Below, in pieces: positions 8,257-14,103 of a DNA stretch of 64,000 nucleotides. The stretch's first letter is position 1; every line of letters begins with the position of its first letter. A program made the position numbers and the translations under genes. The stretch is from Candidatus Obscuribacter phosphatis (lineage in GTDB: Bacteria; Cyanobacteriota; Vampirovibrionia; Obscuribacterales; Obscuribacteraceae): contig MOYA01000002.1 in assembly GCA_001899315.1 (NCBI GenBank), positions 227,070 through 291,069 on the forward strand, written 5' to 3'. The notes beneath the pieces are model-generated. The model was not told the DNA's origin and did not search any database. It saw nothing but the letters and a program-made list of their open reading frames with translations.

Positions 8257-9597
8257 CTATATAAGTTCTGAGTCTCTAAGCAGAGCCTTCATTTCTCTTC
8301 TTATGTCTTTGATCGAGTCGGTTATCGCTGCCGCCTGATGCCAGTCATTGTTGCGGTTGGCTTGCTCTAGAGCCGCTAGCTCTTCTTCAAATCGATTTAG
8401 CACATTTTCTGTCGAGATTTGATCGTGGCTATGACTGAGTGCAAGGCGCCGCAGCCTGCGCAAGACTTTCGAGGTCTTTTCCAAGCTTGCGTCATTAACT
8501 GGTCGATTTCTATGGGGCGAATCTATCTCAAGATCTTCAGTATTCTCGCTATTTTCAGTTTTTCTTTTGCGTCTCTTTTTTTGATCGGCTTCGATGGCGG
8601 CTGTTTGTTTCATCACTATTTCGGTGATGGCATCATTGCTTGCTTCGCCCTTGGTCGTCTCTTCTTGTGCGTCTTCTTGTTCTTGTTTTGTTTGTTTGCC
8701 GAGTTTCTCTTGTTTTTCTTTTGCATGTTTTTCTAGTGCATGTTTCTCTAGTGCATGTTTTTCTAGCATCTTTTGCAGCATATTGGTCTCGATGCCGAGC
8801 ATATCTATATATTTGCTGAAATCAATAGAGTCGTTGTCTATTAAGGCATTGATTGCCTGGTCTAAGTATTTTCCGGTGGTTGAGTACTGGGCCAGTCGTG
8901 CTTTAGTGGCTTGGTTGATTAATGTCCCGGCGCGGCGGGTGGCCTCTAACAGTCTGCCTAGATTGCGCTTGTCTTTTTTGTCTGTCTGAAAAATTAGAGA
9001 GCTTGGAAAATGACTTTGATCTTCTAGTACCTGAGCTGCTACAAAGCTTAGCCAGACGAGCCCGGCATCGGTTTTGGCGGCGATTTCGCCATCGCTGCCG
9101 GTGTCAATAAGTTCGATGGCGTCTTGCAGGTATTGAGTGGCTAAGCCTAGTTTGTCTTTCAGCTCTTCTGAAACAATTAGGTTCTTGTACTCCACCAAAA
9201 GTTTGAACTCAATCAGAGCTTGCAGCAGTCGTCTAATCTCTGCCCTGACAGGGTTCTTCAGGTCGAGCGTTTCACTAAGCCGGCTATCTTCTTTGTCGGC
9301 ATCGGTCGAAGCGAGATTAGGGCAGGCGGTGGCATGCAGAGCCGCCATGTCTAGATGCAAAAGCGCTCTTTTGGCAAAGACAATTGCCTCTTCAAGATCT
9401 TCTTGCTCTAAGGCTTTGAGAGCTTTCTCATAGGCTCTTTGGGCTTTGCCTCGGCGCATACTGCAAAGAGGGCTGTAAACTCCTTCGTTTTTCTCGTCGC
9501 GTTCACTCAAGCGCACGCTAATCTCTTTCAGAAATTTGCTCAAGTCTTTGCGCAAGCGTCTGTCGTCTTGATTGCTATCGCCTCCGAGAAAGTTCAT
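8257..9597 (-). CDS. Helical/coiled-coil protein of unknown function
   Basis: A 446-residue soluble, mostly helical protein. The first half holds TPR-like helix pairs ('AYEKALKALEQEDLEEAIVFAKRAL'-type pattern, near residues 55-80). The middle carries a short tandem repeat of LEKHA units followed by Lys/Glu/Gln-rich coiled coil and an Arg/Lys tract (KKRRKRK). The start ATG overlaps the stop of the preceding gene by four bases (ATGA), so translation is probably coupled. It shares helix layout with that upstream protein, suggesting a duplicated domain. No function is recognised. Confidence 0.65.
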   Translation of the reverse strand: MNFLGGDSNQDDRRLRKDLSKFLKEISVRLSERDEKNEGVYSPLCSMRRGKAQRAYEKALKALEQEDLEEAIVFAKRALLHLDMAALHATACPNLASTDADKEDSRLSETLDLKNPVRAEIRRLLQALIEFKLLVEYKNLIVSEELKDKLGLATQYLQDAIELIDTGSDGEIAAKTDAGLVWLSFVAAQVLEDQSHFPSSLIFQTDKKDKRNLGRLLEATRRAGTLINQATKARLAQYSTTGKYLDQAINALIDNDSIDFSKYIDMLGIETNMLQKMLEKHALEKHALEKHAKEKQEKLGKQTKQEQEDAQEETTKGEASNDAITEIVMKQTAAIEADQKKRRKRKTENSENTEDLEIDSPHRNRPVNDASLEKTSKVLRRLRRLALSHSHDQISTENVLNRFEEELAALEQANRNNDWHQAAAITDSIKDIRREMKALLRDSELI

Positions 9598-10103: not shown

Positions 10104-10108
10104 GGAGG
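10104..10108 (+). promoter_or_regulatory. Strong Shine-Dalgarno fixing the start of the RF-like gene
   Basis: GGAGG with 8-nt spacing to the ATG at 10117. It shows that translation is meant to begin in frame 1, the frame that meets a TAG at 10174-10176, and not in the frame that encodes the conserved release-factor sequence. Confidence 0.7.
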
Positions 10109-10116
10109 TAACGGTT

Positions 10117-10855
10117 ATGTCGAAAAATTGCAAAGATAAAATAGCCGGAAATCTGCACCAGTCCGGGCACCTTTAGCCTTATCATCGATATTCATGCAGG
10201 CGAAGGCGGGGCTGATGCGCGTTCCTTTGCTTTAGAGCTCTTGGGTGCTTATTGCAAGTATGCAGCACTGAATCACTTGCTTAGTGAAGTTGTCTATCAA
10301 TCAGAGTCTTCTTGGTCTCTCTGTATAACAGGGGAGCGCGCCCGCGCTTGCTTTGGCGACGAAGCCGGTAAGCATGTCGTACAGCGCGTTCCTGCCAGTG
10401 AGAGCCGCGGGCGCAGGCATACTTCGGTGGTGGCTGTGGCGATTCTGCCTCTCTCGAAAGAAACGGCAGCTTTTCGCTTGCCCGAACAAGATGTCGAGAT
10501 AAGCACCCAGAAAGGTCATGGTAAGGGTGGTCAGAACCAAAATAAAGTAGAGAGTGCTGTCAGGGTGATTCACAAACCTACCGGGCTTTCGGTCTTTATC
10601 AATGGCCGCGACCAGTATCGCAATAAGGTATTGGCTCTAGAAATCTTGACCGAGAAAGTAAGGGAGCGAGAAAGATGGCTGGCGCAGGAACACCTCAGGC
10701 AGCTCAAAGCTTGTCAGCTCGGAGACGGTGCCCGCAGTGGCAAGCGACGAACTTATAACTTCATCAATTCTTTCGTGCTTGATCATCTCTCTGGTTGCAA
10801 GACCACACGGGTGAAAGAAGTTATGTCTGGTCGCTTTGACCTGTTGAAAGGCTAG
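10117..10855 (+). CDS. Class I release-factor paralogue, read through a +1 frameshift
   Basis: Translation from ATG 10117 gives 19 codons (MSKNCKDKIA...SGHL) and then TAG at 10174-10176. A +1 slip at CTT-T joins this to frame 2, which begins SLIIDIHAGEGGADAR, the equivalent of the RF1/RF2 'RAGTGGDEA' segment. No ATG, GTG or TTG exists in frame 2 between its upstream stop (10142) and 10241, which is downstream of that conserved segment. The fused product is about 245 residues: codon-recognition loop 'VPASES' at residues about 91-96 (RF1 has VPATES; RF2 has SPF), catalytic GGQ at about 137-139, and the C-terminal 'RTYNF...VxDHxSG' region. The N-terminal helical domain 1 of RF1/RF2 is missing. 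It probably hydrolyses peptidyl-tRNA at stop codons or in ribosome rescue. It differs from PrfH in keeping the RF1-type loop. Confidence 0.8.
10166..10177 (+). promoter_or_regulatory. prfB-like +1 frameshift site with UAG
   Basis: The site reads GGG CAC CTT TAG C (with the GGC frame shifted by one). The E. coli prfB site is AGGGGG TAT CTT TGA C; here the G-run, the 3-nt spacer, the CUU slippery codon, the stop and the following C occupy the same positions. The G-run is shorter than in E. coli, so stimulation by anti-SD pairing would be weaker. The stop is UAG, the RF1-specific codon. Confidence 0.65.
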
Positions 10856-13620: not shown

Positions 13621-14103
13621 ATGCAAGACAAAGCTAAGTCTAAACTGGCTGCTGCCATAGCTGTCGGTCTGGGTCTTTCCCTAAGTTCAGCCGCCCGCGC
13701 CGGTGGTATTGAAAGTGGTAATGCCGCTCCAAAATCGGCGGCATCTAGTTTGTCGAGCAAGATCCTGCTTGCTCAAGCTGTCGACGACAAGTCTCAGCGC
13801 GGTGTAGAAGCCGGTTGCAAGGGCAAAGAAGGCTCCTGCAAGGGCAAAGAAGGCTCTTGTAAGGGCAAAGAAGGCTCCTGCAAGGGCAAAGAAGGCTCTT
13901 GTAAGGGCAAAGAAGGCTCCTGCAAGGGCAAAGAAGGCTCATGTAAGGGCAAAGAGGGCTCCTGTAAGGGCAAAGAAGGCTCCTGTAAGGGTAAAGAAGG
14001 CTCATGTAAGGGCAAAGAAGGCTCCTGCAAGGGCAAAGAAGGCTCTTGTAAGGGCAAAGAAGGCTCCTGCAAGGGCAAAGAGGGCTCCTGCAAGGGCAAA
14101 TAA
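13621..14103 (+). CDS. Secreted CKGK-repeat protein, RiPP metallophore-like
   Basis: A 160-residue protein with a signal peptide (MQDKAKSKLAAAIAVGLGLSL... ARAGG), a short linker, and 14 CKGK units spaced as GSCKGKE heptads to the C-terminus (13813-14100). Composition is almost only Gly, Ser, Cys, Lys and Glu. Signal peptide plus C-terminal EGxC repeats resemble the HvfA/bufferin class, whose EGKCG cysteines are modified by DUF692-type MNIO enzymes to bind metals. No modifying enzyme is encoded in this window, so that assignment is tentative; a free-thiol metal or oxidant buffer is the alternative. GAGGAG precedes the ATG. Units differ only at synonymous positions. Confidence 0.75.
   Translation: MQDKAKSKLAAAIAVGLGLSLSSAARAGGIESGNAAPKSAASSLSSKILLAQAVDDKSQRGVEAGCKGKEGSCKGKEGSCKGKEGSCKGKEGSCKGKEGSCKGKEGSCKGKEGSCKGKEGSCKGKEGSCKGKEGSCKGKEGSCKGKEGSCKGKEGSCKGK
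13813..14100 (+). repeat. Tandem 21-bp coding repeat, 14 units
   Basis: Each unit encodes GSCKGKE; the first begins with Gly only and the last lacks Glu. Third-position differences (TGC/TGT, TCC/TCT/TCA, GAA/GAG) show a partial 42-bp higher-order pattern, as expected from unequal exchange followed by selection to keep the peptide. Confidence 0.9.

Follow-up and report, generated by a model that had tools for sequence, protein, structure and literature searches.

The window analysed here, a stretch of 64,000 nucleotides from an Obscuribacterales genome of 8 contigs and 5.5 Mb, carries on its forward strand a class I release factor (RF) gene that is divided between two reading frames (10117-10855). 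A Shine-Dalgarno (SD) sequence, GGAGG (10104..10108), lies 8 nt 5' of the ATG at 10117, and GGAGG or AGGAGG precedes the same ATG in the four other genomes with the gene. This ATG opens a 0-frame leader ORF of 19 codons and a TAG (10117..10176), whose predicted peptide is MSKNCKDKIAGNLHQSGHL and whose end forms a putative frameshift site, CTT-TAG-C (10171..10177; CTT 10171-10173, TAG 10174-10176, C 10177), with the sequence CTTTAGCCT being the same in five of five genomes. The +1 frame is open from AGC at 10175 to TAG at 10853-10855 and encodes a body of 226 amino acids (10175..10855) that begins SLIIDIHAGEGGADAR and contains the PCRF and RF-1 (GGQ) domains without domain 1; the fused product would have 245 residues. 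No ATG, GTG or TTG is found in the +1 frame of the window gene 5' of the conserved domain. The initial annotation, which had described an ATG with an ideal GGAGG, a stop after 19 codons and a release factor continuing in the +1 frame with no start codon of its own, was thus accurate in its coordinates and frames.

Complete prfA and prfB genes are also present in this genome, making the window gene a third class I factor, and the prfB gene carries the ordinary CTT TGA C. The neighbours of the window gene code for a sigma factor, zf-HC2, Msr and trypsin-like proteins. We considered a prophage location and rejected it, as none of the six scanned neighbours is a phage gene and the neighbours vary between genera. 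Elsewhere in the window (13621-14103) there is a protein with about a dozen tandem CKGKEGS units.

To establish how widely the arrangement is conserved, we searched for orthologues in 60 relatives and then in the whole order (53 genomes). Full orthologues were recovered from four other Obscuribacteraceae genomes (G002, G012, G003 and G029), with protein identity ranging from 94% down to about 61%, and a partial one (L008) lies at a contig edge in G025. Every full orthologue has the SD-ATG, a leader of 17-19 codons, CTT TAG C and the factor in the +1 frame. By profile, the gene is patchy, being found in 5 of the 53 genomes of the order and absent from one genome of the same genus; the sixth profile match in this set is an ordinary prfA. 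A contig scan returned a 94%-identical relative of the protein in JAIETF010000026 ('Candidatus Obscuribacterales bacterium'), its other matches being short GGQ proteins of other families. Beyond the order, three other phyla, sampled with 333, 346 and 345 genomes, yielded no other cellular carrier at E<=1e-72, and neither, at E<=1e-65, did a sample of 386 genomes of its own phylum besides the window's own genome; these searches covered genome samples, and absence from them is no proof of true absence.

A frame break after 19 codons can resemble a decaying gene, and a pseudogene or a sequencing or assembly error might by chance have landed on a prfB-like heptamer. Comparison with the relatives makes this reading practically negligible. 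The junction is identical in five separately assembled genomes from three genera, none of which shows an intact single frame, and this rules out an indel or assembly error, in line with the earlier argument that an indel would hardly fall on such a site. When the window is compared with G002, dS is 0.85 and dN 0.033 for the +1-frame body (dN/dS 0.039), a ratio of about 0.04 that rules out gene decay; hence, the downstream gene passes the check for decay that the initial annotation had proposed. The RF body is under strong purifying selection. In the same comparison, the leader with its 5' region is 93% identical at the nucleotide level vs 86% for the body; together with the low dN/dS, this indicates constraint on a regulatory leader and a protein that functions. 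Moreover, the same arrangement recurs in 26 viral loci.

These viral loci emerged from scans of viral contigs and a phage collection, which placed the gene in a family found on large phage contigs. The viral relatives lie on presumed phage contigs of up to 533 kb and on two records of huge phages, LR756511 (595 kb) and LR745208 (485 kb); neighbouring genes match phage families, a tail protein and a Dda-like helicase among them. A CTT-stop +1 slip is needed in 26 of the 30 distinct viral loci with the standard code. Our survey comprises 37 CTT-stop sites in 31 distinct loci (26 viral and 5 bacterial), where the stop is UGA at 24, UAG at 11 and UAA at 2 sites, and C directly follows it at 27 of the 37, as in prfB. 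All five bacterial loci and 26 viral ones contain a path from an ATG through CTT-stop to the domain, with either one site or two in tandem; dinucleotide shuffles of the 150 bases 5' of the domain produced such a path in 0.17% of cases for the window locus and in 0.34% when averaged over 20 loci.

The sites occupy four different positions in the gene. Most precede the domain; others fall within it, near codon 22 (L140, L141, L150, L183, L187, L189), codon 28 (L281) or codon 36 (L168, L288). In these nine inside-domain loci, three of whose fusions were written out in full, the fused product is a seamless release factor, and neither frame alone makes one. This bears directly on the alternative that the leader peptide is followed by re-initiation at a non-standard codon (AUC, AUU or CUU) just past the UAG, yielding an RF without the leader. 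In-frame AUC and AUU codons do occur downstream of the stop in the window, and the orthologue in G012 has a TTG three codons 5' of the domain motif; however, no start codon is conserved past the stop, and re-initiation requires neither the CTT before the stop nor the +1 phase, yet both are preserved. Nor can it join the two halves of the nine inside-domain genes, where a GEGG-type stretch lies 5' of the stop and the rest 3' of it. We therefore regard re-initiation as very improbable, and +1 frameshifting at the site, as judged from sequence, as nearly certain to be the way in which the window gene is expressed.

Six viral loci would need two successive +1 shifts, with UAG and UAG (L050), UAA and UGA (L054), UAG and UGA (L057), UAA and UAG (L059) or UGA and UGA (L113, L117) as their tandem stops. 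In L050 (2860-2960; IMGVR 3300005613_000001, 527 kb), two near-identical prfB-like cassettes stand in series before one release factor, AGGGGGTGT CTT TAG C and then AGGGGGTGC CTT TAG C. Four standard-code viral members are without a CTT-stop site: L119 begins at its own SD-ATG, whereas a short leader is followed by an in-frame UGA in L048 (2940-3000) and L121 (1970-2000), and L269 (1940-2110) has an in-frame UAG. Stop-codon readthrough or a local loss of the site may account for these four. A recoded genetic code behind the in-frame TGA of L048 was rejected, with long neighbouring ORFs reading normally with standard stops. Huge phages that use UGA as a sense codon (L055, L109, L110 and L169, with L303 looking alike) encode a domain-1-less RF that starts at an ordinary ATG and lacks the site, which is what a gate dependent on the standard stop codons would predict.

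In six loci the release factor gene sits among tRNA genes (L045, L047, L071, L121, L150, L140). A tRNA-Leu(GAG), the decoder of the slip codon CUU, is encoded in L047, L071, L150 and L140. In L059, ARAGORN identified a tRNA (8594-8671) with the anticodon CUA, predicted to read UAG; it lies about 4 kb away from the release factor gene, in which UAG is the stop of the second shift site.

With regard to stimulatory elements, phage and bacterial sites were compared by the pairing of the 13 upstream bases with the anti-SD. SD-like elements are enriched upstream of the phage sites: the mean over 25 of them is -6.7 kcal/mol vs -4.3 for shuffles, with -5.4 kcal/mol as the lowest of 300 shuffle means. 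The five bacterial sites have a mean of -2.3 kcal/mol, no better than shuffles, and the prfB sites of the same bacterial family have a mean of -2.9 kcal/mol, the E. coli prfB site reaching -10.6. An SD-like AGGGGG three bases 5' of the CUU is absent from both the window (CCGGGCAC) and its 94%-identical sister (CCGGACAC); the G-run of the window is GGA in that sister and is missing from the three other orthologues. Thus, the window does have the GGG-NNN-CTT spacing, but of the position-for-position match to the E. coli prfB site claimed at the outset, the CTT, the stop and the C are conserved, and the G-run is a feature of the window that its relatives do not share. With the G-run varying and no significant anti-SD pairing, we rejected a conserved G-run as the stimulator of the bacterial site; downstream RNA structure was likewise rejected, the segment 10177-10240 folding no better than shuffles. 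In 18 of 20 checked genomes, the CTT TGA of prfB is preceded by a conserved stretch that is not SD-like. The Obscuribacteraceae prfB leaders (L075-L094) are without AGGGGG and have in common a conserved GAAAGTCnGnGAnTAT before CTT TGA. Given the weak SD-like pairing at both prfB and window-type sites, frameshifting in this bacterial family apparently involves no strong SD-like element in either gene. For want of a conserved SD-like stimulator, the efficiency at the window's site could be low.

The product has the two domains of a class I release factor, a PCRF decoding domain (PF03462, 65 bits) and an RF-1 domain with GGQ (PF00472, 75 bits), both above the Pfam cut-offs. Against NCBIfam, its best family is RF1 at 180.7 bits; this is below the cut-off of 400 because domain 1 is absent, the match covering model positions 106-333 only. 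The RF2 score (124.8 bits) is also below cut-off. An AF2 model of the +1-frame body has a pLDDT of 89.6, and its best PDB matches by Foldseek are ribosome-bound RF1 structures (TM 0.84-0.87, normalised to the query); the predicted fold is RF1-like. In alignments, the catalytic GGQ motif (10526..10534) is invariant in 22 family members and RF1. The decoding tripeptide of the window protein is P-A-S (10391..10399), in place of the P-x-T of RF1; it is PPT in G012 and in most phage members.

In a tree of 45 rows with RF1 and RF2 as outgroup, the five bacterial copies form one clade (100/99) nested in the phage clade, on the RF1 side. The main family and the codon-22 group come together at 99/98, and the wider domain-1-less set (85/99) stands beside RF1. 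The topology fits a single capture from phage, its direction hanging on the outgroup and several inner branches being weak. The RF1-side placement, the RF1-like fold and the five genomes together support the original proposal of a shortened RF1-type paralogue made through a prfB-like +1 shift.

Such a factor might instead rescue stalled ribosomes, like PrfH or ArfB, and not read stop codons, in which case the gate would sense stalled termination generally. Domain 1 is absent as in PrfH, the decoding tripeptide has drifted in some members (PAS, PPS, PHL, PDN, PKN), and the stop codons differ among sites. Against this, the window protein scores only 56.1 bits with PrfH (TIGR03072; cut-off 166.65) and 26 bits with ArfB (cut-off 100), the PxT-type loop, H-T-S and the surrounding decoding residues are mostly retained, and the nearest fold is canonical ribosome-bound RF1. 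Membership in PrfH was rejected on the sub-cut-off score and the absence of rtcB alongside, the only RtcB gene found in the genome being on another contig; in the tree, the PrfH pair forms a long branch on the side of RF2. A rescue role is thus unlikely, though it retains some weight.

The reading that we favour, with a probability of roughly 0.8, is that of an accessory, domain-1-less, RF1-type factor of phage origin, with slow termination, in this case at UAG, as the gate on its synthesis. In prfB, slow termination at a stop codon in the A site favours the slip from CUU to UUU. Ribosomes that begin at the ATG at 10117 would likewise come to the UAG just after CUU. With ample RF1-type activity they would terminate and free a 19-residue peptide; when termination is slow, with UAG in the A site, the peptidyl-tRNA-Leu would slip from CUU to UUU, AGC would be read next, and the full 245-residue factor would be made. 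In bacteria UAG is read by RF1 only, and a response of the window gene to RF1-type activity is therefore to be expected. As the decoding (PCRF) and GGQ hydrolase domains are kept, the factor should release chains at RF1-type stops and so shut off its own synthesis, the window product presumably closing the loop by reading UAG. Such a function in sensing and feedback is probable. Several phage members with P-P-T use UGA, which an RF1-type factor should not read, and a simple self-feedback therefore cannot hold for all; where phage members combine UGA sites with RF1-like loops, either RF2 would be what the gate senses or the factor would have a wider specificity. The general principle across the phages, whatever the stop and with the tandem sites and tRNA arrays included, may be that the gate opens as host termination capacity drops. 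On balance, we lean slightly towards a still broader picture: a widespread phage family of minimal RFs under a stop-codon logic (one or two prfB-like +1 sites, any stop, four positions, absent from UGA-recoded phages), produced only upon failure of host RF1, host RF2 or both, from which the Obscuribacteraceae captured one member and wired it to UAG and hence to RF1 alone.

RF autoregulation by frameshifting has so far been a story of RF2 and UGA; here it would extend to an RF1-type gene with UAG. The use of all three stops and of two-site gates offers a natural test of stop identity, next base and SD-like element as switch settings, and suggests a reason for the presence of release factors in large phages. 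Gene callers will miss or truncate such genes. A survey of huge phages mentions RF1 and RF2 genes, its main text being without frameshifting (PMC7162821), and we found no report of a frameshift in this minimal RF family in the open-licence literature.

Several known systems invite comparison. As in prfB, a short 0-frame leader ends in CUU before an early stop with C after it, a class I RF follows in the +1 frame, and dependence on termination speed is expected; the window gene differs in its RF1-type protein without domain 1, its UAG in place of UGA and its want of a conserved SD-like element, and the phage relatives in their use of all three stops and tandem sites. The initial annotation had treated a shortened, RF1-looped paralogue with UAG as undescribed. 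In prfB, none of 8,164 motifs surveyed in 2025 has UAG (PMC12421855); among release factors at large, the Mimivirus factor R726 undergoes a UGA readthrough and then shifts to +1 at CUU UAG C (PMC3521657). A 2016 review described an early in-frame UAG in RF1 genes as unknown while mentioning the giant-virus case, and recounts the dissection of the RF2 shift site CUU by mutation with UAG next to it (PMC5009743). The Megavirus release factor mg280 has a +1 shift at CUU UAA C (PMC3521657). The Mimivirus factor is the nearest precedent for CUU UAG C in a release factor gene: these giant-virus genes share with the phage family a virus-encoded RF, a +1 shift at CUU-stop-C and two recoding events per gene, but they are of the eukaryotic/archaeal type, not homologous, and serve in a eukaryotic host, and their first event is a UGA readthrough, whereas both events at the tandem phage sites are +1 shifts. 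PrfH (RFH), as far as the consulted part of its description goes (PMC1586002), is similarly without domain 1, has a GGQ domain and is accessory to RF1 and RF2, with no frameshifting reported there; it sits elsewhere in the tree and has an rtcB neighbour, which the window gene has not, and the decoding loop of the window protein looks RF1-like. RF1 (prfA) itself is the closest family by sequence and by fold, from which the window factor differs in being without domain 1 and in standing beside an intact prfA that the genome keeps as its own.
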